A DNA stretch of 64,000 nt from contig NZ_VFPP01000001.1 in NCBI RefSeq assembly GCF_006716745.1, positions 1,550,001-1,614,000 on the forward strand, read 5' to 3'. The translations under genes and the position numbers were made by a program. Below are positions 1-19,253 of this stretch, piece by piece; the stretch's first letter is position 1; each line of letters starts with the position of its first letter. This DNA is from Saccharothrix saharensis (GTDB lineage Bacteria; Actinomycetota; Actinomycetes; Mycobacteriales; Pseudonocardiaceae). A model generated the notes under the pieces. The model worked only from the letters and a program-made list of their open reading frames with translations, made no database searches and was not told where the DNA came from.

Positions 1-127
1 CGTCCACGACCGGCACGGCGCTGAACGCGCCCGCGGTCAAGGTGGCGGCGAGTTCCTTGAACGACGTGCCGGCGCGGACGCTGACCACCTCGCCTGTCAT
101 CAGCGAGGAGACAGTGGGTTCACGCAT
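1..127 (-). CDS. CBS-domain protein, N-terminal part (runs off window start)
   Basis: Reading leftwards from the ATG at 127, the 42 visible residues begin MREPTVSSLMTGEVVSV and continue to AFSAVPVVD. This is the opening of a CBS domain, which usually binds adenosyl ligands and works in pairs. A purine-rich ribosome site (GGAGAG) precedes the ATG. The gene is divergent from the hibernation-factor gene and shares with it an intergenic region holding two DosR-box-like palindromes. A degenerate copy of the same CBS opening is fused to the OsmC remnant at 1250-1606. The rest lies outside the window, so extra domains cannot be judged. Confidence 0.75.
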   Translation of the reverse strand, partial: MREPTVSSLMTGEVVSVRAGTSFKELAATLTAGAFSAVPVVD

Positions 128-331
128 GGCTCTCTCCCGTCTTCAGAGCGGACCGGGTCGGGATGGGACTCCGAGTCGGAGGCAGAGGCGCCCGACCTCG
201 TTGCGCGCCAACCGCACAACGGGCCCGATCTCCACCGTTCGACCTGCTCGGCTGATCCGGTACCTCCAGCCTCGTCCGAGGGGGTGCGGAGGCACAGAGT
301 CCTTGGTCGTCCCGAACGTCCTGGGCCCGTC

Positions 332-345
332 GGGACCTTGGCCCC
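332..345. promoter_or_regulatory. DosR-box-like palindrome
   Basis: GGGACCTTGGCCCC resembles the mycobacterial DosR core GGGACTTTAGTCCC: the left half is intact and the right half is GGCCCC. It lies between the divergent CBS and hibernation-factor genes and could serve either. The assignment rests on similarity and on recurrence of the motif across the island. Confidence 0.45.
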
Positions 346-398
346 TGCGACGGAAGCGGTGTCACCGTCGGCGGTGGGGTCCGAGGACCCGGTCCGAC

Positions 399-413
399 GG
401 GATCTTCGGTCCC
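399..413 (+). promoter_or_regulatory. DosR-box-like palindrome upstream of the hibernation-factor gene
   Basis: GGGATCTTCGGTCCC has half-sites GGGAT and GTCCC with a 5-nt spacer (4 in the mycobacterial consensus). It ends 35 nt before the start at 449, and the tail GTCCCTGTC recurs upstream of other genes in this island. Confidence 0.5.
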
Positions 414-448
414 TGTCACCCGAACAGGCCAACGACCAGGCTGAAGGC

Positions 449-745
449 ATGAGCAACGTGCACGAGATCCTCAACATCCGCACCGACCTGGGCACCGGCG
501 TCCCCGCCGATGCCACCGAGTACGCCCGCGCGAAGGTCGCGGCGGTCGCCAAGTACGCGCCCGCGGACGTCCAGTTCGCCCACGTCCGCTTGCGCACCGA
601 CGGACCGCGGTCGATCGTCGCGCACGCGTCGTTGGACGTGAACGGGAAACCGGTGAACGCCGAGGCCGCCGCCACGACCTACCAGGAAGCGGTGGACCTG
701 CTCCACGACCGGTTGCAGCACCAACTCGCCGACATGGGTCGCTGA
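449..745 (+). CDS. HPF/RaiA-like ribosome hibernation protein (98 aa)
   Basis: The ATG at 449 gives 98 residues with the beta-alpha-beta-beta pattern of the HPF/RaiA (sigma-54 modulation) fold: an N-terminal strand with IRTDLGTGVP, a helix with EYARAKVAAVAKYAP, then strands FAHVRLRTDG and VAHASLDVNG, and a C-terminal helix of the DLLHDRLQHQL type. Short HPF-like proteins block the ribosomal decoding site during stasis. This one lacks the C-terminal dimerisation domain of long HPF. M. tuberculosis has a related hibernation-type protein in its DosR regulon, which fits the palindromes upstream. An upstream in-frame start at 284 is unlikely because that segment contains both palindromes. Confidence 0.75.
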   Translation: MSNVHEILNIRTDLGTGVPADATEYARAKVAAVAKYAPADVQFAHVRLRTDGPRSIVAHASLDVNGKPVNAEAAATTYQEAVDLLHDRLQHQLADMGR

Positions 746-765
746 GACGGAGGACGAGCAGGGCT

Positions 766-1345
766 GTCCGAGTCGGCATCAACGGTTTCGGGCGGATCGG
801 GCGAGACGTGCTGCGCGCCGCGTCCGACCGCGCCGACGCCGACCTGGAAACCGTGCGGTCAACGACCTGACCACGCCGGAGACACTGGCGCACCTGCCGG
901 CCTACGACTCGACGTACGGGCCGTAGTTCGGCAGGGTGCACCGGGACACCGCGCCGGGCAAGGACGTCGACGCCACCATCGTGATGGGCGTCAGCGAAGA
1001 GAGGCCTACGACCTGGAAGGGCACCACATGGTGTCCAACGCCTCTTGCACGACGAACTGCATCGCGCCCGCGGTGGACGAGGACCCACGGCTACAGTCCG
1101 CGTTGGACGGTCCGCACAAGGACCCGTGGCGGGCGCGGTCGACGACCCGGTCATCCCCGCCCTGGTCGGCTGCCTCGGCCAGGCTCATGGGAATCCCGCG
1201 CTACACCACCGCCCAGGTCGTGTCCCGCGACATCGTCGGAGAGCAGGCGTCACGCATGTTCGACGCAGGTCTGACCGAGTCCACCGGCCGCACCGTGAAG
1301 GTGTCGCGCCGGCAGGTCGCGCGCGTGGCAGACAGGCTTCTCGGG
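766..1345 (+). pseudogene. Degenerate glyceraldehyde-3-phosphate dehydrogenase (gap) remnant
   Basis: Fragments of class I GAPDH occur in order but in different frames. The NAD-binding start GINGFGRIGRDVL is at about 766-830. A shift and an in-frame TAG follow through VNDLTTPETLAHL and YDSTYG. The active-site block VSNASCTTNC is at about 1031-1060, then GPHKDPWRAR. The C-terminal block VVSRDIVGEQAS and FDAGLT is near 1219-1270. The start codon, most of the catalytic domain and the WYDNEW region are missing. It follows the hibernation-factor gene directly, so it may once have been cotranscribed with it. It runs tail-to-tail into the OsmC/CBS remnant. Confidence 0.8.
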
Positions 1346-1606
1346 TGTCACGGTGGCCACGTCCCCGGTCATCACGTCGCGGACCTCACCGTGCGGCCTT
1401 TGCGTTCGTGTCCGGCTCACCGGTGTGGTGGCGGTGCACGCCGCCATCGATCCGACCAGGAGTTCGACCGGACCGGGCCCGACGTCGGCACCACCGTCGA
1501 GCTGTGGCCGATCGGTGGGCACCAGGTGGTCGCGCAGCGCCACCACGTGCTCCTCGCCGGCCAGGTAGGTGACCGAGACCTGCGCGGTCCTCGTGGCGGT
1601 GCTCAC
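1250..1606 (-). pseudogene. Chimeric remnant: OsmC N-terminus fused to a CBS-domain start
   Basis: A GTG at 1606 overlaps the stop of the upstream gene (GTGA) and opens 118 residues. The first ~55 (VSVTYLAGEEHVVALRDH, then GPGPVELLVGSMAACTA) match the start of the intact OsmC at 16154-16579. After that point the reading frame switches to a CBS-like opening, VRDVMTGDVATVTPE, and then loses similarity. The OsmC peroxidase core and its second catalytic cysteine are absent, so peroxidase activity is not expected. It looks like an internal deletion that joined neighbouring osmC and CBS genes. The ORF remains open, so a peptide could still be made. Confidence 0.7.
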
Positions 1607-4212
1607 GGCGTCCTCCTCGCGTCGCGCAGCTTGCGCAGGAACGGGTCCACCGGTTCGGCAGGCGCCACGCGCACGCGCGCGTCCACCGCGATCACGCGGT
1701 CGTCGACGAGGACCAGGGGGTTGAGGTCCAGCTCGGCGACCTCCGGCAGCGACTCGGCCAGGTGCGACACGCGGCGCAGCACGTCGCGAACGGCCGTCTC
1801 GTCGTGGTCCCGGAACACCTTCGGCGCGGCGCGGAAGCCGTGCAGCAGGTCGTCCAGGTCGGCCTCGGCCAGTGGGGCGAGGGCGGCGGCGCGGTCGTCG
1901 AGCAGGTCGGTGTCGACACCCCCGAGCCCGGTGACCACGAGCGGCCCGAACTGCGGATCGGTGACCACACCGACGAGCAGCTCGCGCCCGCGCCGGGCCA
2001 TCGGCTGGACGAACACGCCGGTCAACCGATCGCCGAACCGGTCGCGCAGGGACTCGAAGCCGTAGGTCACGGCGTCGTCGCCGGCGAGGTCGAGCAGCAC
2101 GCCGCCGCCCGAGCTCTTGTGCAGCAGGTCTTCGGCCACCGCCTTGAGCGCCACGGGCACGTCGAAGGAGCGCTGGGCGGCCACCGCCGACTCGACGTCC
2201 CGCACCACCACACCTCCCAGCACGGGCAGCCCGAACGCCGCGAGCAGCCGAACCACCCGGTCGGGTGACAGCCACCCCTGCTGACCCGCGATGACCGCGC
2301 GCGCCTCGGCCAGGTCGACGCCGGGCAGCTCGGCGAGCTCCGGTTCGGCGCGGCGCAGCCACCGGCCGCGCTGGACCAATGCGGCCAGCACGGCTGCGGC
2401 ACTCGCCGGGTCGGCGTAGCGGGCGATGCCGTCCGATGTCAGCGACACCGCCTCGTCCTGGTCGGCCCGCACCGCCAGCACGGGCTTGGCGGTGCGGTGC
2501 ACCCCGCCTGCCGGGTCGCCGACCGCGGTAGGGACGGTGACGGCGATGACCGCGTCCACGCCCGGGTCGGCCGCGACCACGTCCAGGCAACGGCCGAACG
2601 TGCGCTCGTCCACGGCGGCCGTGGTGTCAACCGGGTTGTGCGCGCTGGCGGTGCCGGGCAGCAGGGCCCGCAACGCCTCCGCGGTGTCCGGGCCCAGCTC
2701 GGCGACGGCCAGTCCGCGGTGGACGCACGCGTCGGCGGCGAGAACGCCCAGACCGCCCGCGTTGGACAGCACGGCCACCCGATCGCCCGCGGGCAGCGGT
2801 GTGGCGTGCAGCGCGGCCAGCACTTCCACCAGTTCACCGACGCCGTCCACCGCGGTCACCCCCGCCTGCCGGAACAGCGCGTCACGGGTGACGGCCGGGG
2901 TGGCGGTGGAGGCGGTGTGCGAGGCCGCGGCGCGCTGACCGGCCTCGCTGCTCGCCGCACGCACGGCCAGCACCGGCTTGCGCCGCGCGACCCGCCGCGC
3001 CAGGCGCGAGAACTTGCGCGGGTTGCCGAACGACTCCAGGTACAGCGCCACCGCCTTCGTGGCCTCGTCGCGCTCCCACCACAGCAGCAGGTCGTTGCCG
3101 CTCACGTCGTACTTGTCGCCGGTCGACACCAGCTCCGTGGTGCCCAGGCCGAGCGCGCGCAGTCGTTCGACCACGGCGATCGCCACCCCACCGGACTGGG
3201 TGACCACACCAACCTCGCCCGCGGCGAGGCGGCCGTCCATGAAGGTGGCGTTCATCCGCACACCGGGGTCGGTGGCGGACGCACCGACGCAGTTGGGGCC
3301 GACCAGGCGCATGCCGTACCGGCGCACGACGTCCAACAGTCGATCCGGGGCCACCCCGGAGGTGACCACGACCAGGGCCTTCACCCCGCGTCGACCGCAG
3401 TCCTCGGCGACCTGCGGCACCGCCTCGGCCGGGACGCACACCACCGCCAGGTCCGGCGCCTGCGGCACATCGGCGACCGACCGGTAGGAGGCGACACCCA
3501 GCACCTGGTCGGTGTGCGGGTTCACCGCGTACACCGCCCCCGTGTAGCCACCGGAGACCAGGTTGTGCAGCACGGCGTTGCCCACCGAAGACCGCTTGCG
3601 CCCCGCGCCCACCACCACGACGGAGGTCGGCTTGAGCACCGCGCGCAGGCTGGCCACGTCGGCGGCCTGCTCGCGGTCGGCGACCGCCTCCAGGTAGCGC
3701 TCACCCGAGTCGAGGCCGAGGTCGATGCGCACCTCGCCGTTGTCAGCCGTGGAGGTCCACACCAGGCCGAGGTCCGCGAAGACGCGCAGCATCTTGGAGT
3801 TCACGGTGAGCACGTCGGCGCGGAACCGCCGCACGCCCCGCCGTCGGGCCAGTGAGACCAGGTGCTCCAGCAGTAGTGTGCCGACGCCGTGGGACTGGCG
3901 GTCGTGCGCGACCACGAGCGCCACCTCGGCGGTGTCGTCGTCGAGCGGGACGTAGCTGGCGGCGCCGACCAGCGCATCGGAGGCGAACGCGCCGATCACG
4001 ACGTGCAGCGGCTCTTCCGGGGAGGTCAACCGGGCGACGAACTCGTCCAGGTGACGCGGCGCGGCGCTGAAGAACCGCAGGTAACGGTCATCCGGCGGAA
4101 GACCGAGGTGCAGCGCGAGCAGGGCCTCGGCGTCAGCCGGGCCCAGCTCGCGCAGCGCCACGACGGACCCGTCCGCCAGCAGCGCGCGGTCGACGTTCGA
4201 AGAAGTGGTCAC
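1603..4212 (-). CDS. GNAT acetyltransferase fused to ADP-forming acyl-CoA synthetase
   Basis: This 869-aa protein has a GNAT domain at about residues 12-165, with the acetyl-CoA loop RQSHGVGTLL near 105. An acetate-CoA-ligase/succinyl-CoA-synthetase-like CoA-binding region follows at about 190-310 (VVGAGRKRSSVGNAVLHN). Next is the ligase domain with the phospho-histidine motif SHTAS (His432), and last a C-terminal ATP-grasp domain (DVPVALKAV and HKSSGGGVLLDL). The family includes protein-lysine acetyltransferases such as Salmonella Pat, but here GNAT is N-terminal, as in many actinobacteria. GTG starts overlap on both sides (GTGA at 4209-4212 and 1603-1606), so it is translationally coupled to the universal stress protein before it and the OsmC remnant after it. 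The likely role is acetyl-CoA/acetylation control in dormancy; this is an inference. Confidence 0.88.
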   Translation of the reverse strand: MTTSSNVDRALLADGSVVALRELGPADAEALLALHLGLPPDDRYLRFFSAAPRHLDEFVARLTSPEEPLHVVIGAFASDALVGAASYVPLDDDTAEVALVVAHDRQSHGVGTLLLEHLVSLARRRGVRRFRADVLTVNSKMLRVFADLGLVWTSTADNGEVRIDLGLDSGERYLEAVADREQAADVASLRAVLKPTSVVVVGAGRKRSSVGNAVLHNLVSGGYTGAVYAVNPHTDQVLGVASYRSVADVPQAPDLAVVCVPAEAVPQVAEDCGRRGVKALVVVTSGVAPDRLLDVVRRYGMRLVGPNCVGASATDPGVRMNATFMDGRLAAGEVGVVTQSGGVAIAVVERLRALGLGTTELVSTGDKYDVSGNDLLLWWERDEATKAVALYLESFGNPRKFSRLARRVARRKPVLAVRAASSEAGQRAAASHTASTATPAVTRDALFRQAGVTAVDGVGELVEVLAALHATPLPAGDRVAVLSNAGGLGVLAADACVHRGLAVAELGPDTAEALRALLPGTASAHNPVDTTAAVDERTFGRCLDVVAADPGVDAVIAVTVPTAVGDPAGGVHRTAKPVLAVRADQDEAVSLTSDGIARYADPASAAAVLAALVQRGRWLRRAEPELAELPGVDLAEARAVIAGQQGWLSPDRVVRLLAAFGLPVLGGVVVRDVESAVAAQRSFDVPVALKAVAEDLLHKSSGGGVLLDLAGDDAVTYGFESLRDRFGDRLTGVFVQPMARRGRELLVGVVTDPQFGPLVVTGLGGVDTDLLDDRAAALAPLAEADLDDLLHGFRAAPKVFRDHDETAVRDVLRRVSHLAESLPEVAELDLNPLVLVDDRVIAVDARVRVAPAEPVDPFLRKLRDARRTP

Positions 4213-4697
4213 AGCAGCGGTCCCGGGGTGATGACCGGCTTGTGCTCCACCGGCGCGGACGGGGCCTCGGGCTCGGGTTCGCGGATGACGACGACCGGGC
4301 AGTGCGCGTGGTGCACGCAGTAGGAGCTGACCGAACCCAGCAGCACCTCGCGGATCGGGCCCGCTCCCCTGCTGCCGACCACCAGCAGCGCCGCGTCCCG
4401 CGAGGCGCGCACCAGCACGTCGCGGGCATCACCCTCGGCCAGGACCGCGCGGACATCGCCCCCGGCCTCGCCGAGGATCCCGTCCAGCAGCGCCTTGTTG
4501 TCCTGGCGCAGCCGCTCCTGGTCCATCCCGGCGGCGACGGCGGCGGACATCGCCCCGATGACCATGCTGTAGTCCACGTGCCAGGCCAGGACGGCCTCGA
4601 CCACGGCGCCACGCAGCTTCGCTTCCTCGACCGCCCACCGCAGCGCGGTCCGGCTGGAGGGCGATCCGTCCACGCCCACCACGATCCTGTCGTCCAT
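4209..4697 (-). CDS. Universal stress protein (UspA family)
   Basis: This 162-aa single-domain protein opens DDRIVVGVDGSPSS and carries the ATP-binding G-x2-G-x9-G-S motif as GSRGAGPIREVLLGSVS. The C-terminal strand is CPVVVI, followed by a charged/proline tail ending ITPGPLL. It is a close paralogue of the protein at 16663-17139, including the unusual tail. Its stop overlaps the GTG of the GNAT-synthetase gene. The upstream palindrome at 4774-4787 lies 77 nt from the start, almost the same distance as for the paralogue. ATP-binding Usp proteins act in the cytoplasm and are typical DosR-regulon members. Confidence 0.92.
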   Translation of the reverse strand: MDDRIVVGVDGSPSSRTALRWAVEEAKLRGAVVEAVLAWHVDYSMVIGAMSAAVAAGMDQERLRQDNKALLDGILGEAGGDVRAVLAEGDARDVLVRASRDAALLVVGSRGAGPIREVLLGSVSSYCVHHAHCPVVVIREPEPEAPSAPVEHKPVITPGPLL

Positions 4698-4760
4698 CGC
4701 TCCTCCTCGGGTGCTCCTCCCAGCCTCTCGGTCGGCGGACGCGTAGGTCAGGTACGGCGG

Positions 4761-5139
4761 TCACCCGTGGGCCGGGACCTTCGGCCCTGAACCGCCGGAG
4801 TGCGGCACGACGTGAACAGTCGCGGCACCCGTCGCCCTGATCAGGACTGATCGGCCGTCTCCGTCGGTGGTGTCGACCTTGGCCTCGGCTCCCACGAGGT
4901 CGACACTGCCGTACCTTCCATGACCGCGTGTGCGGGCGCGCACGCCGCAGCGTGCAGCCATCGCCGGTGTTCGGGACCGTCGGGTCCAGCCAGTAGGCGC
5001 GGGCCGGCAGGCCGAGGTGTTGTGTCACGGCCTGGGCGGCAGGCGTCCCAGCGTCTTCGCAGCAGTGAGCGAACAACGCTTGGGCGAAGGTCGGGTCGTC
5101 TCCGCGGAGCCCGTCGGACTCTCGGTTCGGGGCACTCAT
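4761..5139 (-). pseudogene. Small unrecognised gene, probably frameshifted
   Basis: An ATG at 5139 with a strong ribosome site (GGAGAGGAACCTGTG) opens a protein-like stretch: TFAQALFAHCCEDAG, then HLGLPARAYWLDPTVP up to NTGDGC. Similarity to a normal coding pattern then appears to move to another frame (GHGRYGSVDLVGAEAKVD) that ends at 4761. I do not recognise the family. The leader and first codons are nearly identical to those of the tandem Usp at 18716, so the start region was shared by duplication or exchange. The first frame stays open well past 4761 but would then run through the Usp control region and into that gene. Confidence 0.35.
4774..4787 (-). promoter_or_regulatory. DosR-box-like palindrome upstream of Usp operon A
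   Basis: GGGACCTTCGGCCC lies 77 nt before the Usp start at 4697. The identical 14-mer stands 78 nt before the paralogous Usp start at 17139, which supports a conserved operator. Confidence 0.6.
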
Positions 5140-5527
5140 CACAGGTTCCTCTCCGGGTTCGGATCCGCTGGCACCGAGCGGGCGCGGCTTCCGCCGTCGT
5201 CGCGACAATCACCGTCCGCGATCGGGACGCGCCGTCCCGAGCCTGTGAGGTCGTCGTCAGTCCTCATGCGCACCTCGTCCACCACTGACGCCGGGCAGCC
5301 TTCCGGCCCGGCGACGCGGTCGTTGGTCCCTGTCGATCAGGACCTGCAGCTGTGAATCCGGAGACCGTTCCCCTCGGCGCGCGGGCTGGTCCCGGTATCG
5401 GGATCGGTGGGGAGAACTCCAGCGTCCGCACAGGGCCCTGGGCGCGTCGCGGCAGGGTCTTTGGACCCTGTGCCGGATCATTGATTCGGGCGAGCCTGGA
5501 GACAAGTGGAGGGGAAGGGATTCGACA
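5140..5527. other. Intergenic region before the dosR-like gene
   Basis: This 388-nt stretch has no supportable gene. It holds the leader of the small minus-strand gene, an imperfect GTCCCTGTCGATCAGGAC inverted repeat at about 5331-5348 and the palindrome at 5455-5468. Confidence 0.5.
5455..5468 (+). promoter_or_regulatory. Palindrome upstream of the dosR-like gene (possible autoregulation site)
   Basis: GGGTCTTTGGACCC sits in the longer inverted repeat CAGGGTCTTTGGACCCTG, ending 59 nt before the regulator's GTG. The half-sites are GGGTC/GACCC rather than GGGAC/GTCCC, so it is a variant of the island motif. Confidence 0.45.
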
Positions 5528-6184
5528 GTGGTGGCGCGCGTGTTTCTGGTGGATGACCACGAGGTGGTCCGGGTCGGTGTCCGGGAGCTGTTGAACAGCG
5601 ACGACAGCTTGCAGGTCGTCGGCGAGGCGGGGTCGGTGGCCGAGGCGCTGGCCCGGGTGCCCGGCAGCGGCGCGGACGTCGCCGTGCTGGACGTGCGACT
5701 CCCCGACGGCAACGGCATCGAGCTGTGCCGCGAGCTGCGGTCGCAGCTGCCCGAGCTCAAGTGCCTGATGCTCACCTCGTTCACCGACGACGAAGCCCTC
5801 TTCGACGCCATCATGGCCGGAGCATCCGGATTCGTCCTCAAGCGCATCCTCGGCAACGACCTGCAGAACGCCGTCCGCAAGGTCGCCGCCGGCGAATCCC
5901 TGCTCGACGCCCGCTCCACCGCCGCCCTGCTGGGCCGCATCCGCCGCGAACGCGAACAAGGCGACCCGGTGCGCACCCTCACCGAACAGGAACGCACCGT
6001 GTTCGACCACATCGGCGAGGGCCTGACCAACCGACAGATCGCCGAGAAGATGTTCCTCGCCGAGAAAACCGTCAAGAACTACGTCTCACACCTGCTGGCC
6101 AAACTCGGCCTCGAACGCCGCACCCAGGCCGCCGTCCTCGCCACCAAGTTGCGCAAACCCAGCGCGCCCTCCGACGAGGAATAG
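5528..6184 (+). CDS. DosR/DevR-like NarL-family response regulator
   Basis: This 218-aa protein opens [11 protein letters not shown] with the phospho-acceptor Asp55 in [14 protein letters not shown]. The switch Lys is in SGFVLK, and the C-terminal LuxR-type helix-turn-helix carries [20 protein letters not shown]. From memory of M. tuberculosis DosR, the similarity runs end to end, including the [11 protein letters not shown] segment that holds the regulatory Thr. The start is a GTG preceded by a GGAGGGGAAGGG ribosome site. It is convergent with the sensor kinase, with a 13-nt gap between stops. It probably binds the recurring GGGAC-N4-GTCCC palindromes as a dimer. A 76-nt piece of this gene is duplicated at 18891-18966. 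Confidence 0.93.
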
Positions 6185-6197
6185 CCGCGGCGCGCCG

Positions 6198-7898
<1,701 letters not shown>

Positions 7899-8014
7899 TC
7901 ACGGATCGGAGGTGATGGCCAAGAGGCGCATGGCCTGCGGCTGTGCGCGCGCCTTGTGCCGTGCCTGCCGTCACGCCGCTCGACTGATCCGCACTCGGGC
8001 GGACCACGGCCGGT

Positions 8015-8034
8015 GACCTGCCCGCAGGCAGGTC
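8015..8034. repeat. Perfect 8-bp inverted repeat between the kinase and nitroreductase genes
   Basis: GACCTGCC-CGCA-GGCAGGTC is a perfect hairpin or operator-like repeat in the divergent intergenic region. It does not match the GGGAC motif, so it may be a separate regulator site or a small hairpin. Confidence 0.4.
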
Positions 8035-8075
8035 GGTCAGCGCTCGGTCGTCCTCGTGGACGTCCCTGTCGATTG

Positions 8076-8089
8076 GTGACCTTCGGCCG
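8076..8089 (+). promoter_or_regulatory. Variant DosR-box-like site upstream of the nitroreductase gene
   Basis: GTGACCTTCGGCCG differs at both outer positions from the GGGACCTTCGGCCC found at 4774 and 17217. It lies 78 nt before the start at 8168, the same spacing as those two sites. Confidence 0.45.
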
Positions 8090-8167
8090 TGTGCTCCCCA
8101 CCGCTCTGACCGGACAGTGGGTGGAGAAGGTCGACGTGTTCGGGAGACGTGGTTCGAGGTGGACGTG

Positions 8168-9148
8168 ATGGACGGGGTGTTCGGGTTGACGCCGGACGAG
8201 GTGGCCGGCGTGCTGCGCACGGCGGCCTTGGCACCGTCGCTGCACAACACCCAACCGTGGCGCTTCCGGGTCGCCCACGACCGCATCGAACTGCACGCGG
8301 ACCCCGATCGAGCGCTCCCGGCGACCGACCCGGAAGGGCGCGAACTGCGGCTGTCGTGCGGCGCGGCGCTGTTCAACCTCCGGCTCGCGCTACGGGCACG
8401 CGGCATCCGGCCGCTGGTCACCCTGCTGCCGGGAACCGACGCCCCCGGTGCGCTGGCCGTGGTCCGGTGGGGCGGGCACCGTGACGCCGACGAAGAAGCC
8501 CGGGTGCTGGTCGGAGCCGTGCCGAAGCGGCGGTCCAACCGCAAGCCGTTCCACGACGTGCCCGTGCCCGCCGCGCACCGGTACGCGCTGGTGCGGGCCG
8601 CCCAGCTCGAGCGCTCCTGGCTGCACGCCGTCGTCGACCGCGACGAACGCGCCCGTCTGCGGAACCTGGTCACCCGGGCTCACCGCATCCAGTCCCAGGA
8701 CCCTCGCGTGCGCGCCGAGCTGGCCTCGTGGACCGGTCCGCGCACGACCGACGGCGTGCCGCCCGCCTCCGGGGGCGTGCGCCCCGCGCCTCAGGACGAG
8801 TGGGCGCTGCGCGACTTCCACGCCGCCGAACGTCCACCGGGCAAGGACTACGAGTCCGACCCTCTGGTCGTCGTGCTGTGCTCGTTCCAGGAAGGGCCGC
8901 TGGGCGAACTGCAGGCCGGTCAGGCGCTGCAACGAGTGCTGCTGACCGGGACGACACTGGGTTTGTCGGCGTCGTTCATGTCCCAGGCGATCGAAGTCCC
9001 GCAGGTGCGCCACGACCTGCGCCGCTCGCTCGGCGGCATGGTCGTGCCGCAGGCCGTGCTGCGCGTCGGGTTCGGCTCACCCGTGCCACCCAGTCCGCGC
9101 CGCGACGTCACCGACCTGCTGCTGGCCCCCGCTGCGACCCGGTCCTGA
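8168..9148 (+). CDS. Acg-like nitroreductase-family protein
   Basis: This 326-aa protein is of the two-lobed nitroreductase type found in mycobacterial dormancy regulons (Acg/Rv2032). The N-terminal VLRTAALAPSLHNTQPWRF is the FMN-binding opening of the family; the middle has KRRSNRKPF and the C-terminal part GLSASFMSQAIEVP. Acg proteins are thought to sequester FMN because a lid blocks the active site; whether this one is active cannot be told. The ATG at 8168 was chosen (GAGGTGG upstream); an ORF opening further up at 8117 starts too close to the palindrome. Confidence 0.87.
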   Translation: MDGVFGLTPDEVAGVLRTAALAPSLHNTQPWRFRVAHDRIELHADPDRALPATDPEGRELRLSCGAALFNLRLALRARGIRPLVTLLPGTDAPGALAVVRWGGHRDADEEARVLVGAVPKRRSNRKPFHDVPVPAAHRYALVRAAQLERSWLHAVVDRDERARLRNLVTRAHRIQSQDPRVRAELASWTGPRTTDGVPPASGGVRPAPQDEWALRDFHAAERPPGKDYESDPLVVVLCSFQEGPLGELQAGQALQRVLLTGTTLGLSASFMSQAIEVPQVRHDLRRSLGGMVVPQAVLRVGFGSPVPPSPRRDVTDLLLAPAATRS

Positions 9149-9155
9149 TCGAGCC

Positions 9156-9169
9156 GGGACTTTCGTCCC
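9156..9169 (+). promoter_or_regulatory. Near-consensus DosR box
   Basis: GGGACTTTCGTCCC has both half-sites perfect with a 4-nt spacer and extends to CCGGGACTTTCGTCCCGG. It is the best match in the window to the mycobacterial core GGGACTTTAGTCCC. It lies 7 nt after the nitroreductase stop and 58 nt before the next start. Confidence 0.7.
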
Positions 9170-9227
9170 GGCATGGGAAGCACCGTCGCCTCTGCTCCCG
9201 TCCTCCCCCACGGACGACAGTGGACGC

Positions 9228-9938
9228 ATGGACCGCGACACGCAACCCGCCGCTCACCCGGTAGTCGTGCTCGACGACGGCTCGCCCTGGGGCGAGGCGG
9301 CGGTGCGCTGGGCCTCCGCGCACGCCGCCCTGCTGGACGCGCCACTGGAGAAGCAGCCGCCCACCGAAGACCAGCTGCACGACCTCCTGCTGGTCAGCGC
9401 CCGCGCCGAGGCCCTGGTGGTCGGCCACCGGGGTGCCGACGGGAACTCGTTCGGCCTCGGCCGGCTGGTCCTGCCGCTGGTCCGGCACGCCGCGTGCGAC
9501 GTCATCGTGGTCCGCGGCACCCCCGAGGCATTGCGGGGCGGGCACCGCCGCGTCACCGCTCTGATCACCGGTGACGAGCGGGACGCACTGGTACTGCACC
9601 GCGCCGTCGACCTCGCCGAGCGCAAGGGCGCGGCGCTGCGCGTGCTGCACGCCGCCCCGGACCTGCCCGTGCGGGCAGACCAGCCGGGACTCCCCGTGAC
9701 CAAGGCCGATCGCGTGCTGCATGACATCCGGCACACCTCGGTGCTGGCCCGGATGCACCCGCACGAGGCGGTGGCCCGCTACGCCGACACCGACCTGTTC
9801 GTCCTGGCCGACCGGGGCCCCGTGACCCGAGCCCCGCTCTACCACGCTCACAGCCCGGTACTCGTGGCGCACCAGGTCCCCACCGAGGCCCACCACGGCC
9901 CGGAACTCCGGACGGCAGGCATCCAACGAGCCGGGTAG
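9228..9938 (+). CDS. Divergent tandem universal-stress-like protein
   Basis: This 236-aa protein has two weakened Usp folds. The first opens HPVVVLDDGSPWGEAAVRWA and keeps a degenerate nucleotide loop at GHRGADGNSFGLGRLVLP, followed by CDVIVV. The second runs from about residue 105 (VTALITGDERDALVL) to SPVLVAHQVP. The usual G-x2-G-x9-G-S motif is altered in both, so ATP binding is uncertain. Similar short double-Usp proteins sit beside dosR in mycobacteria (Rv3134c type). The best DosR-like box of the window is immediately upstream. Confidence 0.75.
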   Translation: MDRDTQPAAHPVVVLDDGSPWGEAAVRWASAHAALLDAPLEKQPPTEDQLHDLLLVSARAEALVVGHRGADGNSFGLGRLVLPLVRHAACDVIVVRGTPEALRGGHRRVTALITGDERDALVLHRAVDLAERKGAALRVLHAAPDLPVRADQPGLPVTKADRVLHDIRHTSVLARMHPHEAVARYADTDLFVLADRGPVTRAPLYHAHSPVLVAHQVPTEAHHGPELRTAGIQRAG

Positions 9939-9990: not shown

Positions 9991-10719
9991 ATGACCCGCA
10001 CCGCAACCGTCGTCACCGAGCACGACATCGCCCACCTGCCTGAGGCCGCCCAACGCTACCTGCGCTTCACCGGCGTCCTCGGCCGCCCGCGCGACAGCGG
10101 GTTCGAGCTGCACGCCCACGGCTGGTTCCGCCGCAAGCCCACCGACCACTGGACGGCGTGCCGCATCGAGCAGCGCAACACCGCACCCGACATCAGCCGC
10201 GACTACCACCTGCACCTCAACCTCGCGCACGTGCTCCCGGTCCACGCCACGGACACCTACGACCACGGGCACGGCCACCTCCACGCCACTGCACTCGGCA
10301 CGTTCACGGTCGCCGACGCCACCGGCCCCGAGATGGACCGGGCCGAACTCGTCACCTACCTCGACGACGCGCTCCTGCTCGCCCCGTCCACGCTGCTCGA
10401 CCTGCCTCTCAGCTGGACCGCCGTCGATGACCGCACCTTCGACGTCACCCTGACCGACCAGGACCTCCAGGTCACCGCCCGCGTCACCACCGACCACCGC
10501 GGCGCACCCCGCGAGGTCACCACCGACGACCGCTGGGCCGACCTGCCCACCGGCCTGACCAGGACGCGCTGGACGACCCCCGTCGACGGCTGGATCCTCG
10601 TAGCCGACCGCATGCGCCCCCGCCGGGCCTGCGCCGTCTGGCACCTGCCCGAAGGCCCCTTCACCTACGCCCAGTTCGACTTCACCAACGCCGACATCAC
10701 CTACCACCCGGCGGGCTGA
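9991..10719 (+). CDS. DUF6544-type hypothetical protein
   Basis: This 242-aa protein has the pattern of the DUF6544/DUF6920-type family: LPEAAQRYLRFTGVLGRP near the start, a mid-region DTYDHGHGH and FTVADATGPEMDRAELVTYL, then LLDLPLSWTAVDD, GLTRTRWTTPVDG and YAQFDFTNADITY. It has no signal peptide or membrane segment and its function is unknown. It lies 52 nt after the double-Usp gene with the ribosome site GGAGG, so it may share that promoter. The family assignment is from memory of its sequence pattern. Confidence 0.6.
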   Translation: MTRTATVVTEHDIAHLPEAAQRYLRFTGVLGRPRDSGFELHAHGWFRRKPTDHWTACRIEQRNTAPDISRDYHLHLNLAHVLPVHATDTYDHGHGHLHATALGTFTVADATGPEMDRAELVTYLDDALLLAPSTLLDLPLSWTAVDDRTFDVTLTDQDLQVTARVTTDHRGAPREVTTDDRWADLPTGLTRTRWTTPVDGWILVADRMRPRRACAVWHLPEGPFTYAQFDFTNADITYHPAG

Positions 10720-10981
10720 CCACGGCGCCCTCACACCCGGGCGTAGGGCTCGATCATCGACCGGCAGCTTGGGTGACCTGCCCTCATGAAACCGGACGCG
10801 TCGATCGTGGCCGAGTGGGCGGCGGTGACGACGATGAGTCGGTGCGCCACGACACCGGCGGGGCGACAACGACCGCCCGTCGACACGGCACTGCAGCACA
10901 GTGTCCGTATCGCCACGTGAAACATGGCCTTACTCGAAGTCTCATTCAATGCGAATGCGCAAAATAGACCAGGATCGGTAT

Positions 10982-11825: not shown

Positions 11826-12557
11826 CCTGGACGACGGAACCCGTCACCGTCCCCTTCATCTCGTCGCGCGCTCCACCGGTCCCCCACCGAATCGATTGTC
11901 GTCGGTCGTCGCGCGAGTACGACCGCCGAAGTGGTGACGAACCCGAAGCAAGCAAAACGGGCTCCCCCCACCGAGGAAGTCGCTCAGTGGTGGGCGCCGG
12001 CCACCGACCCGGTCGGTCGCCGCCGGCGCTGACGCAGGACGCGGCGTTCATCGCCGACGAACCCCGCTCACCGTCGCCGGGTACCGTGATCGGCTCGCCG
12101 ATCGCGGCAAGAACCTCGCCCAAGTCGTGCCCGGCCCCGGGGAACATCCTGACGGGCACCGGCGACGATCGCCGCCACCTGTCCGGTGCCATCGAGCACA
12201 CCGACGGGGTTGTCGTCCTCACGGCTGACGCGGTCCCGGCCCCCTCGCCGCCCGGCTCGACGACCGGGTGGCTGTCGACGAAGCGCAGGAGGCTCTGGGC
12301 GTCCCGCACAGCCTCAGCCTGGCCACCCTCGATCCGAGCCGATCCGCTCGTGCGGTCCGGGTCCAGGTCGGGAACACGATCGGCACAGCGGGCGCTCGCG
12401 CACTGGCGGGGCGACCGCTCGGCCCGCTTCGAGCACAGCCGGCGAGCACGCGCCCAGCGGCTCGCCGACTTCGGCTGCGACCGTGCCTGATCGCCCTCCG
12501 CCATGCGGCCTTCAAGCCACGGGAGTATCCCACCGCGAAGGATCGGCGCGTAACCGC
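11826..12557. other. Gene-free stretch, possibly degenerate coding DNA
   Basis: About 730 nt between the NB-ARC remnant and the P-type ATPase gene contain only short or improbable reading frames. No family was recognised on either strand and no strong hairpin was seen. Confidence 0.4.
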
Positions 12558-15063
<2,506 letters not shown>

Positions 15064-15083
<20 letters not shown>

Positions 15084-15687
15084 GCCGGGTCTCCGGGAAG
15101 CGGACGTCGACCACACCGGCCACGGCGCCCGCCAGAACCGCGGCCACGTGCCGGTCGCACTCGTCGTCCAACGCGTCCACGATCGCTACCCGGCCGTCCG
15201 TGACGGTCACCGTCCAGCGGTGCGGGTCGGCGTAGAGGCCCAGGCGGTGCCGGACCTCGGCGGCCAGCGCGCGGTCGTCACGGCTGATCGCGCGCAGCAT
15301 GTCGCGGCGGGTGACGATGCCGACCAGCCGCTTGCCGTCCACCACGCACGCGCTGCGCGCACCGTGTTCGGCCATGCGCCGGGCCAGCTCCGCGACGTCC
15401 GTCCCGGGGGTCGAGGCGACCACCGGCTCGCTCATCACGTCAGCGACCCTCCTGCGCGGGATGGGGCGCGCCCGTGACGGCTGCCCGTGCACGAGCGAGC
15501 GCGGGTCCACGGGCAGCCGGTCGCGCAGCGCGTCGGTCTCGGTGACCACGCCGACCAGGGTGCCGGCTCCGTCGACCACCGGCAGGGTGGTGAACCCCTT
15601 CGTGGCGAGCAGCGCGGCGGCGTCACGGGCGGCCGTCTCGGGCGAGACGGTCACCACGTCGTGCGTCATCAGGTCCCGGACCCTCAT
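15064..15687 (-). CDS. Tandem CBS plus BON domain protein
   Basis: This 207-aa protein carries CBS 1 (about 1-60, VRDLMTHDVVTVSPE and TTLPVVD), CBS 2 (about 80-135, VADVMSEPVVAS and SACVVDGKRLVGIVTRRD) and a C-terminal BON domain (about 140-200). This combination is common in stress regulons and is thought to sense adenylates. Its ATG overlaps the stop of the preceding Usp gene (ATGA) and its end overlaps the ATPase start. It may regulate the ATPase; this is an inference from gene order. Confidence 0.9.
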
Positions 15688-16157
15688 CGCCCGGCCTCCT
15701 GTCCCGCGCCGACCGCGGCCCCGTCGTGCTGCTCGTCGGCCGGCGGGAGGACCACCACGGGCACGGTCGCGTGCCGCACGCAGTGCGCGCTGGTGCTGCC
15801 CAGCAACACCCGCCGCAACCGGCTGCCGCTGTGCGAGGCCACCACCAGCATCGACGCACCCCGCGCCTGCGCCTCCAGCGCCTCGGCCGCGGGTCCCCGC
15901 ACGCAGTGCCGGATGATCCGCGGGAACTCCAACCGGCCCACGGCCGCGGCCCGCAGCGCGTCGTCGACCAGCGCCTCCGAGCGGGCCCTCGCGTCCTGCT
16001 CGGACGTCATCGCCCAGTCGGCCAGCGGCTCGTAGTCGTAGGCGTTCACCACGTGCAGGGGGAGCTTCCGCTGGGTCGCCTCGTCCATGGCCCAGCGCAG
16101 CGCGCGCTCGCCCGCAGGGGTGCCGTCGATCCCGACCACGATCGGACCTGCGTTCAT
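15684..16157 (-). CDS. Universal stress protein
   Basis: This 157-aa protein opens NAGPIVVGIDGTPAGERALRWA. Its C-terminal loop ASHSGSRLRRVLLGSTSAHC corresponds to the ATP-binding motif G-x2-G-x9-G-S, with the first Gly replaced by Ala. The ATG at 16157 overlaps the OsmC stop (ATGA) and its stop overlaps the CBS start, so translation is coupled through the operon. Confidence 0.9.
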   Translation of the reverse strand: MNAGPIVVGIDGTPAGERALRWAMDEATQRKLPLHVVNAYDYEPLADWAMTSEQDARARSEALVDDALRAAAVGRLEFPRIIRHCVRGPAAEALEAQARGASMLVVASHSGSRLRRVLLGSTSAHCVRHATVPVVVLPPADEQHDGAAVGAGQEAGR

Positions 16158-16579
16158 GACTCCACCTCGTTCAGCTCGATGACGATCTCCGGCGCTCGCC
16201 GGAGCGTGTTGTGCACGGTGCAGTGCTGGACCACGGCCAGCAGGGCGGCCTTGCGCCGCTCGGACATCCCGCGCGGCACCCGCACGGCCAGGTACACCTC
16301 GGCGACGCGGGCCAGCGGGTCGGAGGCCGTCCGGTACTCGGCCGTCACCGCCAGGCCGTGACGCGACTCGCCGTGGCGGTCGAGGAACCGGCCCGCGTAG
16401 AACGCGGTGCACGCGGCCATCGACGCGACCAGCAGCTCCACCGGGCTCGGGCCGAGGTCGTGGCCACCGGATTCCCGCGGCTGGTCGGTGCGCACCTCGT
16501 GGTCCCCGATGCGCACCACGTACTCCTCACCGGACTCGTAAGCCACCTCGACCGAGGTGGTGGCGGTGGTGGTGGTCAT
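16154..16579 (-). CDS. OsmC-family peroxiredoxin-like protein
   Basis: This 141-aa protein has the OsmC pattern: SVEVAYESGEEYVVRIGDHE, then LGPSPVELLVASMAACTA with the first catalytic Cys, a central helix, and AVVQHCTVHNTL with the second Cys. It probably reduces organic peroxides through the Cys pair. The ATG at 16579 has an excellent site (GAGGAGG) that lies inside the scar described next. An in-frame GTG at 16666, overlapping the upstream Usp stop, would add 29 residues derived from a deleted GNAT-synthetase gene. It is intact, unlike its paralogue at 1250-1606. Confidence 0.9.
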   Translation of the reverse strand: MTTTTATTSVEVAYESGEEYVVRIGDHEVRTDQPRESGGHDLGPSPVELLVASMAACTAFYAGRFLDRHGESRHGLAVTAEYRTASDPLARVAEVYLAVRVPRGMSERRKAALLAVVQHCTVHNTLRRAPEIVIELNEVES

Positions 16580-16666
16580 GACGGCCTCCTCGGGTCCCAG
16601 CTCTCGCGGCGCGACCACTGGGCCATCGGCCGACAGCGCCCGGTCGAGGGTCGGGGACGCGGTCAC
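16580..16666 (-). pseudogene. Deletion scar of a GNAT-synthetase gene
   Basis: From the GTG at 16666 (overlapping the Usp stop as GTGA, exactly as at 4212) the codons read TLDRALSADGPVVAPRELGP. This matches the first residues of the GNAT-synthetase at 1603-4212 (VDRALLADGSVVALRELGP). After about 28 codons it runs in frame into osmC. The rest of the roughly 2.6-kb gene has been deleted in this copy of the operon. Confidence 0.8.
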
Positions 16667-17139
16667 AGCAGCGGTCCGGGGGTGATGACCGGCTTCGGCT
16701 CGACGTGCTCGGGCTCGGGCGCGCGGATGACGACGACCGGACACGTCGCGTGGTGCACGCAGTAGGAGCTGACCGAACCGAGCAGCGCACCGCGGATCGG
16801 CCCCGCTCCCCGGCTGCCGACCACGAGCAGCGACGCGTGCTCGGACGCCTTGACCAGCACGTCGCGGGCATCGCCCTCGGCCAGCACCGCGCGGACGTCG
16901 CCACCTGCTTCGGCCACGACCTCGTCCAGCACGTGCTGGTGCTCCTCGCGCAACTTGTCGCGGTCCATCATCGCGGCGACCGTGGCCGACATCGGCCCGA
17001 TCACCATGGCGTAGTCCACGTGCCAGGCGAGGACCGCCTCGACCGCGCAGCCGCGCAGCTTCGCCTCCTCGACCGCCCAGCGCAACGCCGTCCGGCTGAC
17101 CGGTGAGCCGTCCACTCCCACCACGATCGTCTCGTCCAT
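16663..17139 (-). CDS. Universal stress protein (paralogue of 4209-4697)
   Basis: This 158-aa protein opens DETIVVGVDGSPVSRTALRWA and carries the ATP motif GSRGAGPIRGALLGSVS and the tail KPVITPGPLL shared with the paralogue. Much of the sequence (AVEEAKLRG, EAVLAWHVDY, VRAVLAEGDARDVLV) is the same. It heads the second operon and has an identical palindrome 78 nt upstream at 17217-17230. The leaders differ little, pointing to a segmental duplication of the whole operon. Confidence 0.93.
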   Translation of the reverse strand: MDETIVVGVDGSPVSRTALRWAVEEAKLRGCAVEAVLAWHVDYAMVIGPMSATVAAMMDRDKLREEHQHVLDEVVAEAGGDVRAVLAEGDARDVLVKASEHASLLVVGSRGAGPIRGALLGSVSSYCVHHATCPVVVIRAPEPEHVEPKPVITPGPLL

Positions 17140-17216
17140 TGCCCCTCCTCAGGTGCTCACCCCAAGCCTCCCGACGCGGGGTCGACGTGGTCAGTGGCCG
17201 CGGTCCCGTCGGCTCC

Positions 17217-17230
17217 GGGACCTTCGGCCC
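17217..17230 (-). promoter_or_regulatory. DosR-box-like palindrome of operon B
   Basis: GGGACCTTCGGCCC is identical to the site at 4774-4787 and sits at the same distance from its Usp start. It lies between divergent Usp genes and could act on both. Confidence 0.6.
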
Positions 17231-17277
17231 TGAAGGCGGCCCGGGGTGGGCGCTGGTGCGCATCGGCCCCGATGGGC

Positions 17278-17291
17278 GGTGGCTCAAGTCC
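17278..17291 (+). promoter_or_regulatory. DosR-box-like half-conserved site
   Basis: GTGGCTCAAGTCCC has a perfect right half (GTCCC) and a weak left half. It ends 56 nt before the Usp start at 17348 and is followed by the recurrent TGTCGG. Confidence 0.35.
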
Positions 17292-17347
17292 CTGTCGGTC
17301 GTGCCGTCGCAGGGCGAACGCTGCAGGTCAACGGAGAGGAGAAAGCC

Positions 17348-17782
17348 ATGATCCTGGTTGGTGTGGACGGGTCGCCGGCGAGTCGCGAGGCATTGCGCTG
17401 GGCGCTGGCGCAGGCGGTCAAGACCGGTGACGCCGTCGAAGCGACGATGGCGTGGCTGCGCGAACCGGAGTTCGTGGCAGCGGCGTCGATGGGCGTGCAC
17501 CCGCACGCCGACACCCCTGGGCACCGGCACCCCGCGCGCGAACTCCACTCGATCGTGGAAGAGGTCCGTGCCGCCGTGCCGGGTGCGCCGCCGGTCGCCG
17601 AGGTCACCATCGTGGGTGACGCGGGGACGGCGCTGGCCCAGGCGTCGAGGCAGGCGGACCTGCTCGTGGTCGGTGCCCACGGGCACAGCGGGTTGGCCGG
17701 GTTCCTCCCGGGCAGCGTCACCGCGGACTGCCTGCGCCACGCGACGTGCCCGGTCGTGGTCGTGCCACCCGGCCGGACCTGA
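17348..17782 (+). CDS. Universal stress protein
   Basis: This 144-aa protein opens MILVGVDGSPASREALRWAL, with the ATP-binding loop GAHGHSGLAGFLPGSVT and CPVVVVPPG at the end. The ATG at 17348 has a GGAGAGGAG ribosome site; the longer ORF to 17246 would cover the operator region. The histidine-rich middle (HPHADTPGHRHP) is unusual and could bind metal. It is divergent from operon B and ends at a strong bidirectional terminator. Confidence 0.9.
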   Translation: MILVGVDGSPASREALRWALAQAVKTGDAVEATMAWLREPEFVAAASMGVHPHADTPGHRHPARELHSIVEEVRAAVPGAPPVAEVTIVGDAGTALAQASRQADLLVVGAHGHSGLAGFLPGSVTADCLRHATCPVVVVPPGRT

Positions 17783-17796
17783 CGCCACCACGGGTC

Positions 17797-17838
17797 AGCG
17801 ATAAGGGGACCGGTCAACCGACCGGTCCCCTTATCGCT
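17797..17838. terminator. Bidirectional hairpin terminator
   Basis: Perfect 19-bp arms AGCGATAAGGGGACCGGTC and the complement are separated by AACC. It lies between two convergent Usp genes, with no long U tract, as is usual in high-GC actinobacteria. Confidence 0.85.
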
Positions 17839-17843
17839 GCCCG

Positions 17844-18716
17844 CTACTCCGCCGAGGTAGGGCGGACCACCGCCAGCGGGCACTCGGCGTGGTAGACGAG
17901 GGCTTGGCTGGTCGAGCCCAGCAGCATGCCGGTGAAGCCGCCCATGCCGTGGCTGCCCACGACCAGCAGGCGGGCGTCCCGGGCGGCGTCGAGCAGGGCC
18001 CGGACGGGGCGGTCGTGCGCGACCACGCGGTTCACGTGCACGTCGGGGTACTTCTCCCGCCAGCCCGCGAGGCGCTCGGCCAGCAGCCGCAGCTGCTCGT
18101 CCTCGACCCGCGCCCAGTCGACCGTGAAGCGGGAGTGGAAGGCGCTGTCGACCAGGAAGTCGGTCCAGGCGATGACCGCTGTGAGCGGTGCGCCGAGCAC
18201 GGACGCCTCGGCGAACGCGAAGGCGATCGCCTCCTCGCTCGTGGGCGAGCCGTCCACACCGACCACGACCGGGCCGTCACGGCGGATCTCGTCGCGGATG
18301 ACCACCACCGGGCTCTTGCCGTGCGCGGAGACCGCCACGGCCACCGAACCGACCAGCAGGCCGGAGAACCCGCCCAACCCCTGCGAGCCGAGCACGATCA
18401 ACCGTGCCCCTTCCGAGGCGGCGATCAGCGCAGCGGCGGGCCGGTCGAACACGATCGCGGTGTCCGGCTCCACCTCGGGGACGGCCGCACGGGCCGCGGC
18501 CGCGGCCTCCTCGAGCCACTGCCGGCCCTGATTCTCGAACGCCTCCCGCACGTCGTGGCCGGTCAGCACGATCTCCGGGTAGCCGCGGGTGGGCAGCAGG
18601 AAGGCGTGCACGAGCTTGAGCGGAACACGGTGCCGAGCGGCCTCCTCGGCCGCCCACTTCACGGCGGTCAACGCTGAGGCCGAACCGTCCACGCCGACCA
18701 CGATCGGGGCATTCAT
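17844..18716 (-). CDS. Tandem-domain universal stress protein
   Basis: This 290-aa protein has two full Usp domains. The first opens NAPIVVGVDGSASALTAVKWA with loop GSQGLGGFSGLLVGSVA and ends SPVVVIRDE. The second opens GPVVVGVDGSPTSEEAIAFA with loop GSHGMGGFTGMLLGSTS and ends CPLAVVRP. Both keep G-x2-G-x9-G-S, so both should bind ATP. The size and layout match mycobacterial tandem Usps such as Rv2005c. The ATG has GGAGAGGAACCTGTG upstream, almost identical to the leader at 5139. Confidence 0.92.
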   Translation of the reverse strand: MNAPIVVGVDGSASALTAVKWAAEEAARHRVPLKLVHAFLLPTRGYPEIVLTGHDVREAFENQGRQWLEEAAAAARAAVPEVEPDTAIVFDRPAAALIAASEGARLIVLGSQGLGGFSGLLVGSVAVAVSAHGKSPVVVIRDEIRRDGPVVVGVDGSPTSEEAIAFAFAEASVLGAPLTAVIAWTDFLVDSAFHSRFTVDWARVEDEQLRLLAERLAGWREKYPDVHVNRVVAHDRPVRALLDAARDARLLVVGSHGMGGFTGMLLGSTSQALVYHAECPLAVVRPTSAE

Positions 18717-18809
18717 CACAGGTTCCTCTCCGCATCCGGTGTCGGGACCGCAGGTCGACCCGCGTACTCCCTCGTGTTCGACGTTAAGCAGCCGACGGGC
18801 CGGGAACAG

Positions 18810-18823
18810 CGGTCCTAGGTCCC
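18810..18823 (-). promoter_or_regulatory. DosR-box-like site upstream of the tandem Usp
   Basis: On the minus strand GGGACCTAGGACCG has an intact GGGAC half and a degenerate second half. It is about 94 nt from the start at 18716. Confidence 0.35.
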
Positions 18824-18890
18824 GACCGGACGGGGCCGTTGGGCCACCGCCCGACCCCACCCACGTCCCTGTGGCGCCGACGTGTTCCTG

Positions 18891-18966
18891 GCTCACCTCG
18901 TTCACCGAGGACGAAGCCCTCTTCGACGCCATCATGGCCGGAGCATCCGGATTCGTCCTCAAGCGC
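18891..18966 (+). pseudogene. 76-nt duplicated fragment of the dosR-like gene
   Basis: This segment matches 5770-5845, inside the receiver domain of the dosR-like gene, at 75 of 76 positions; the one difference is G at 18909 for C at 5788. It encodes [20 protein letters not shown] and then VLKR. Flanks are unrelated. It has no start codon or DNA-binding part. Confidence 0.9.
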
Positions 18967-19253
18967 CACCGGGCAACTCGGTGCTGATCCGGGCGGTTCC
19001 GGGGTATGGCCGCCGGCGCGACCGGCGTGCGCCTCGACGAGGCTGAAGGGGAGCCTTCGGACACGGGCATTTCAGCGTCACGAGCGTCGCACATGACAGC
19101 AAGAACCCGGACGGGCCGATTCTGCCGGTCCCCGCGGCGGGAGCAGTCGGTTGCGTCGCACGCTTGTCGCGTTATGGTCATGGCACCCGGTGCCGGTGAC
19201 CCGAACGGACGGGGGCCGACCCGTCGGACCTGCACCCCCGTCGTGTGGTGCAG

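Follow-up and report, generated by a model that had tools for sequence, protein, structure and literature searches.

A DosR/OsdR-type island of Saccharothrix saharensis with a putative fermentation arm, and related boxes ahead of pyruvate formate-lyase genes in Actinomycetes

It is understood only in part how aerobic actinomycetes maintain their energy supply when oxygen is absent, and a gene island of Saccharothrix saharensis raises the question of whether one DosR-type regulator might govern a fermentation together with dormancy proteins. The window, a stretch of 64,000 nucleotides (C1:1550001-1614000 of an 8.92 Mb genome in one contig), contains genes for a DosR-like response regulator and a DosS/DosT-like sensor kinase among a dense set of stress genes, with palindromic DosR-type boxes ahead of many of them. 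The island spans approximately 37 kb (genome 1531.6-1568.8 kb), and approximately 18 kb of it lie left of the window in the adjoining stretch L002 (with L001; L-numbers denote stretches of this genome or of relatives). Because the window covers the right half of the island only, the module of pyruvate formate-lyase (PFL), phosphoketolase and acetate kinase lay outside the view of a preliminary description of this DNA. The left half contains CBS proteins, DUF4389 and DUF4342 proteins, a Na/H exchanger, a CBS-BON protein and a flavodoxin-like protein, and further an operon of alcohol dehydrogenase (ADH), PflB and PflA, a SulP transporter, and the acetate kinase AckA with the phosphoketolase XFP. 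We read the locus as a core hypoxia island of the DosR/OsdR type, in which a coupling of dormancy to formate and acetate fermentation is, judged by sequence, highly probable. The dormancy island itself is of an already known kind; the fermentation arm and the widespread box ahead of pflB are what differs.

The putative fermentation operon and the boxes of the island

PFL is an enzyme familiar chiefly from anaerobes, strict and facultative. PflB of the island scored 1158 bits with TIGR01255 (cut-off 994) and PflA scored 300 bits with TIGR02493 (cut-off 232), and the Cys pair and glycyl radical motif are present in PflB, so the pair is predicted to be a PFL with its activase. The Cys pair and the RVSGYA motif were kept in 43 of 44 PflB relatives, and the remaining one is a partial gene. 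The pN/pS of PflB was 0.23 against Saccharothrix algeriensis, 0.30 against Lentzea kentuckyensis and 0.39 against Sphaerisporangium melleum, which means that PflB is under purifying selection. The box of the pfl operon stands 72 nt before the ADH start codon, a spacing like that of dosR (73) and of the universal stress protein (Usp) gene at 9228 (72), and S. algeriensis has a box at roughly the corresponding place of its pfl operon. XFP is preceded at 89 nt by a weaker box, with 14.3 bits in an 18-bp matrix from the island (window matrix) and 11.5 bits in a matrix of 20 boxes before dosR in other genomes (relatives' matrix). The NiFe hydrogenase family PF00374 had no match in the genome, so a formate hydrogenlyase, which would couple formate to hydrogen, was rejected.

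The boxes of the island are of the GGGACCTTCGGCCC type and stand approximately 58-105 nt ahead of start codons. Seven of the nine palindromes in the preliminary description (332, 4774, 5455, 8076, 9156, 17217 and 18810) are strong, with 17.7-23.3 bits in the window matrix, which was partly built from them, and 15.4-22.7 bits in the relatives' matrix. Sites 399 (9.3 and 9.8 bits with the window and relatives' matrices) and 17278 (below 9 bits with the window matrix) were dropped as strong sites because of their low scores, and an additional weak site was seen at 375 (12.0 and 13.7 bits). Three sites had been placed 77-78 nt from their start codons, which was confirmed for 4774 (77 nt) and 17217 (78 nt) but could not be confirmed for a third; 5455, 9156 and the pfl-operon site have 72-73 nt.

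The pattern GGGNCYTWSGNCCC, which was refined on the sites themselves, had 14 matches in the genome (9 for its mirror-pattern control), and half of them (7/14) fell inside 1531646-1567230, a stretch of 35.6 kb or 0.4% of the genome. The looser pattern GGGNCNNWNGNCCC, written before the sites were looked at, matched 237 times and was rarer than its mirror control (459); among the 100 matches listed (positions up to 3.01 Mb), 18 were in the same 35.6 kb. This concentration in the island exceeds what chance would give. The window matrix gave 12 places of at least 17 bits in 94 kb, all within 1531644-1568825, 11 of these being training sites, and in a leave-one-out analysis each of the 11 training sites (two are identical and support each other) outscored all of window positions 20001-64000. 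With the relatives' matrix, which is not wholly independent because its dosR-promoter boxes were picked with the window matrix, the top 14 matches of the 94 kb were all in the island and the best score outside was 13.2 bits. A dosR-promoter box of at least 14 bits was found in 25 of 80 relatives, whereas among 800 segments drawn at random from these loci 20 had one, and the box before dosR was identical at 18/18 positions in S. algeriensis. The boxes at 4774 and 17217 match the S. coelicolor site listed for SCO5979 over 16 bases. Taken as sequence, the predicted sites thus include a putative autoregulation box.

Outside the island, we rejected as targets the refined-motif matches at 4450968, which falls within a LuxR-type gene, and at 8855970, within a cytidylyltransferase-like open reading frame (ORF); others lie at 571343, 1178607 and 8608760. 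The strong box ACGGGACCTTGGTCCCGG at 4729544 (L093:14544-14561) stands approximately 58 nt before an ORF for cydA, cytochrome bd oxidase subunit I. It adjoins a second, convergent DosR/DosS-like pair (4722146) at 6-7 kb and is the best box near another pair among the places fetched, which suggests that cytochrome bd may be a member of the regulon.

Boxes ahead of pflB across actinomycetes

PflB was found in 44 of 394 genomes over the class, the window's own included, in 19/200 genomes of the window's family, 15/150 of family f39 and 63/150 of family f21, and in 4 of 27 named DosR-bearing genomes; searches of two genomes of Mycobacterium, two of Rhodococcus and one of Prescottella gave no PflB. 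Forty of the 44 PflB places other than the window's were fetched (G394, G338, G108 and G403 were left out), and some fetched stretches were shorter than 20 kb owing to contig ends. A quick PflB tree of 45 rows had two clades of 29 and 16, each with an SH-aLRT of 98. DosR (at least 58% identity) was near PflB in 12/28 of the first clade and 0/16 of the second under a rule of ±9 kb, with some DosR matches cut by the stretch end; the window was not counted and is outside this rule, as its DosR is 13 kb from PflB. Neighbours of the Usp, CBS, nitroreductase or DosR-like kinds (profile E 1e-5) were present in 23 of the 24 first-clade rows compared, or 21/24 if two rows with a weak regulator match only are dropped, versus 1/16 of the second. 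Among the relatives, L. kentuckyensis has CtpF, CBS, Usp, DosR, DosS, nitroreductase, Usp, ADH, PflB, PflA, XFP and AckA within approximately 22 kb, and Sphaerisporangium melleum has the order PflB-PflA-DosR-Usp-Usp-DosS. PFL and DosR become neighbours or part frequently along the quick tree (at least 11 changes, with no shuffles compared), and for this reason we dropped adjacency as the main argument and preferred a box test.

In this test a box was a score of at least 10 bits within 400 nt before pflB, the start of pflB being taken as the position that aligned with residue 1 of the query. One symmetrised 16-mer matrix was used for the tree-set loci and for 50 further loci; it was built from 10 island sites and 15 of the approximately 26 distinct site strings in Table 1 for S. 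coelicolor, chosen as the cleaner palindromes. The pflB box was present in 16/29 of the first clade and 8/16 of the second, compared with 8.1% and 2.9% of random segments, respectively; the window's row does not count as boxed, since its box precedes ADH and not pflB. At the second-clade loci, the upstreams of other genes reached the box score in 4/142 (Fisher 6.5e-7). The further loci gave 27/50 in total (5/18 in the window's family, 5/10 in f39 and 17/22 in f21), with 0/50 for a scrambled (inside-out) matrix and 1.5-5.5% for coding or downstream segments. One of the 50 (L196) has the 8.0-bit box of L102/L109 from the tree set and is apparently the same Lentzea flava gene, and the others have new locus numbers; L214 and L215 are outside this set, and L211-L213 were in the box scan and outside the DosR search.

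Analysis of DosR presence, in which genomes without a match at E 1e-52 were counted as lacking DosR, showed a pflB box in 21 of 30 genomes with DosR and in 0 of 5 without it (35 genomes; Fisher 0.006). A first count over second-clade or f39 PFLs had given 13/18 with DosR versus 0/5 without, the f39 additions being placed by identity and not by tree, and G128 being taken as DosR-positive from L154. As the genomes are related, the Fisher values overstate independence. Predicted boxes stand before pflB in many actinomycetes, and pflB is thus tied to this regulator family well beyond the present locus. We think it somewhat more probable than not that DosR-family regulators act as a class-wide oxygen switch for PFL in Actinomycetes, with a dedicated island PFL clade in aerobic filamentous ones and the same box often on PFLs outside islands in genomes that have the regulator, and on none in genomes that lack it. 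Dormancy under anoxia would in that case be powered by a regulated formate/acetate fermentation and would not be just a shutdown. The corresponding prediction is that with the loss of DosR the pflB box would be lost too.

Regulator, kinase and competing explanations

The response regulator (5528..6184, + strand; Response_reg and GerE domains) has its own box at 5455..5468 (+), 73 nt from its GTG. Its best solved structure match was DevR of M. tuberculosis (PDB 3c3w, E 2.2e-85, residues 3-216 of 218), while the next family, VraR, reached E 2.2e-38 only. The stretch KTVKNYV, presumably that of the recognition helix, is identical in the DevR alignment, and the protein is 90% identical to its S. 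algeriensis counterpart. The sensor kinase (6198..7892, - strand; GAF-GAF-HisKA_3-HATPase) best matched the GAF-A structures of DosT (2vzw, E 2.6e-60) and DevS (E 2e-53). His142 of HPPM, Tyr164 of LYMTEK and His383 of DLHDH are all present, and we take them to be the heme ligand, a distal residue and the phospho-acceptor, so that the kinase appears to combine a heme-type GAF and proximal His with HisKA_3 and HATPase domains. These structure matches, the concentration of boxes and the 18/18 conservation before dosR bear out the preliminary description of a DosR-like regulator and a DosS/DosT-like kinase with the conserved heme His in a dormancy island. The two genes are convergent and do not form the usual (not defining) single operon; of 80 relatives, 35 had convergent and 28 tandem pairs, and 17 had no kinase match inside 2.5 kb.

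Two additional DosR-like genes (62% and 56% identity) lie at 4722146 and 6066632, each beside a kinase; the aligned stretch at 4722146 is interrupted by one TAG. The third pair is a tandem of DosS-like and then DosR-like genes (L094:9049-11294, approximately 6065.0-6067.3 kb), with a 17.5-bit box (relatives' matrix) approximately 550 nt upstream. At least three contigs of L. kentuckyensis (L107-L108, L005, L014) each have a DosR-like gene, and one contig also has a 46-residue PFL fragment (L104). A contig labelled Bifidobacterium breve (L062, metagenome bin) carries a tandem DosR (65%) and DosS (40%) with identities as in mycobacterial loci, and its label is probably a binning error; L013, labelled Nocardia sp. 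NRRL S-836, resembles Lentzea loci in DosR surroundings and identity and is possibly misnamed.

Several observations weigh against a hypoxia island that drives fermentation. In S. algeriensis (L003 / L105-L106) XFP is in pieces, a search of 40 kb found no AckA, and a kinase match of 52 residues only stands beside the 90%-identical DosR; in this species the island appears to be in decay. Of the relatives fetched, the two with the closest regulator (85-90%; L003, L004) had no kinase match longer than 250 aa within 2.5 kb. PFL is patchy even within the window's genus, where 5 of 11 listed genomes have it, 9 of the 30 genomes with DosR have no pflB box, and the window's family is low in pflB boxes, probably in part because pflB follows ADH in some of its loci. 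There are two further DosR/DosS-like pairs in the genome, and these may also use some of the boxes.

Some of these points would also fit other explanations. In a general stress and development regulon, as argued for OsdR, the regulator would mainly time development and handle nitric oxide and nitrate, and PFL would be a rarely used passenger. The patchy occurrence of PFL agrees with this, as do the altered sporulation genes reported for S. coelicolor OsdR mutants (PMC5069765) and the S. lividans table (PMC6302529), in which the neighbouring PflA is given as a putative pseudogene fragment. But PflB and PflA are under purifying selection, the catalytic motifs are intact in nearly all relatives, and boxes stand before pflB in both PFL clades, so we regard a passenger PFL as unlikely. 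Slightly less doubtful is cross-talk, in which kinase 6198-7892 is not the (only) partner and three DosR/DosS-like pairs drive the island. The paralogs with their adjoining kinases and the kinase remnant of S. algeriensis speak for it, and the convergent pair kept in 35 of the 80 relatives speaks against it. By far the least probable is that the palindromes arose by chance or are sites of a different regulator: a high GC content promotes GGG/CCC palindromes and the loose motif was less frequent than its mirror control, but the concentration in the island, the result with the relatives' matrix, the conserved box before dosR, the identity to a published OsdR site and the covariation with DosR presence are difficult to reconcile with it.

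We therefore retain the hypoxia island with a fermentation arm. From its gene content, boxes, conservation and associations we infer the following course of oxygen sensing, binding, induction and metabolic flux. When oxygen falls (or NO or CO rises), the heme GAF of the kinase would lead to phosphorylation of the regulator, whose phosphorylated dimer would bind the boxes and activate approximately ten transcription units over the island, its own gene included. The HPF, Usp, OsmC, CBS, CtpF and Acg products would slow and protect the cell. PflB activated by PflA would cleave pyruvate to acetyl-CoA and formate, phosphoketolase would supply acetyl phosphate, from which acetate kinase would make ATP, and ADH could reoxidise NADH. 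If a single oxygen-sensing switch governs dormancy proteins as well as a glycyl-radical fermentation enzyme, survival in oxygen-free soil or dense mycelium could be tested as a fermentation by following formate and acetate.

Further genes of the island and comparison with known systems

At the left edge of the window, positions 1..127 (-) are the N-terminal part of the CBS-BON gene, which runs on leftwards (L002:14447-15127; whole gene, Pfam CBS E 2.5e-29 and BON E 5.6e-12). The HPF/S30AE-type ribosome hibernation factor (449..745, +; PF02482 E 1.2e-6; ATG in frame at 449) follows a box at 332..345 (+; 21.9 bits, relatives' matrix 22.7). A Usp (4209..4697, -; PF00582 E 2.9e-30) is probably the first gene of an operon with a Pat-like fusion of GNAT and ADP-forming acyl-CoA synthetase (1603..4212, -; Pfam; NCBIfam AcCoA-syn-alpha E 2e-116, under its cut-off), and the box of this operon at 4774..4787 (+) contains the 16-mer CGGGACCTTCGGCCCT, which is the SCO5979 site. 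The fusion might act as a protein acetyltransferase, or it might convert acetyl-CoA to acetate and ATP, a reaction that would fit fermentation. The Acg/Rv3131-family FMN oxidoreductase, a nitroreductase (8159..9148, +; NF047509 E 3.9e-97, over cut-off), has a box at 8076..8089 (+; 18.1 bits, relatives' matrix 15.4); its start codon is uncertain (8117, 8159, 8165 or 8168) and its end is 9148. The box at 9156..9169 (+; 19.6 bits) precedes a Usp-type protein (9228..9938, +; PF00582 E 1.2e-9) and is followed further on by a DUF6544 protein (9991..10719, +); another DUF6544 protein is encoded at L002:2133-2615. On the minus strand are the P-type cation ATPase (12558..15116; Pfam E1-E2_ATPase E 2.6e-53), which we presume to be CtpF-like, a twin-CBS protein (15064..15687; PF00571 E 2.5e-31, two stretches), a Usp (15684..16160, start approximate; PF00582 E 1.3e-25), an OsmC domain (16178..16465; PF02566 E 1.5e-14, over cut-off) and a Usp (16663..17139; PF00582 E 5.1e-30). 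Between the latter and a divergent Usp (17348..17782, +, start approximate; PF00582 E 1.4e-25) stands the box 17217..17230 (+; 23.3 bits, relatives' matrix 22.4), whose 16-mer is also the SCO5979 site; its distance to the start codon at 17139 is 78 nt. A double-Usp protein (17844..18719, -, start approximate; PF00582 E 1.3e-52, two stretches) has its box at 18810..18823 (-; 17.7 bits, relatives' matrix 16.8). Pfam and NCBIfam thus confirmed the six Usp genes, HPF, OsmC, nitroreductase and CtpF-like ATPase of the preliminary description, and the CBS-BON gene had to be moved: Pfam finds CBS without BON at 15064-15687, and a CBS-BON gene begins at the left edge, from 127 leftwards.

The mycobacterial DosR targets include the Acg nitroreductase, Usp, HPF, CtpF and CBS types and are scattered in the genome. 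The Saccharothrix island has the same target types, and its closest solved structures are those of the mycobacterial DosR/DosS/DosT system; dosR and dosS are in tandem at many mycobacterial loci, whereas the pair is convergent here. Like known PflB/PflA, the pair passes the equivalog cut-offs and has the catalytic motifs, but it lies inside an oxygen-sensor island.

The OsdRK system of Streptomyces coelicolor (PMC5069765) is of the same kind: OsdR has a packed island at SCO0167-SCO0219, the paper places 20 of the 22 genes in the range SCO0198 to SCO0219 under the control of OsdR sites, and it reports binding for every predicted site examined by gel shift. A packed island such as the preliminary description noted had already been described there. 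SCO0206 falls within the controlled range, and the words 'formate', 'fermentation' and 'SCO0206' are absent from the main text of that paper as far as available. In PMC6302529, the S. lividans table of OsdR-correlated genes has rows for SCO0206, a 'putative pyruvate formate-lyase' two locus numbers from osdR and co-expressed with it, and for a fragmentary activase. Apart from this table row, the literature found, judged mostly by listings and with few subscription papers covered, states no link of PFL to DosR, OsdR or DevR as such. The two islands share the type of regulator and kinase, a dense set of Usp, nitroreductase and ADH genes, boxes before many units and one identical 16-mer. The published S. 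coelicolor consensus is AGGGCCGATCGGCCCT, whereas the Saccharothrix boxes are GGGACCTTCGGCCC-like; osdR and osdK form an operon, whereas the Saccharothrix pair is convergent; and where S. coelicolor has nitrate reductase and pyruvate phosphate dikinase, Saccharothrix has phosphoketolase with acetate kinase and an intact PflB-PflA operon.

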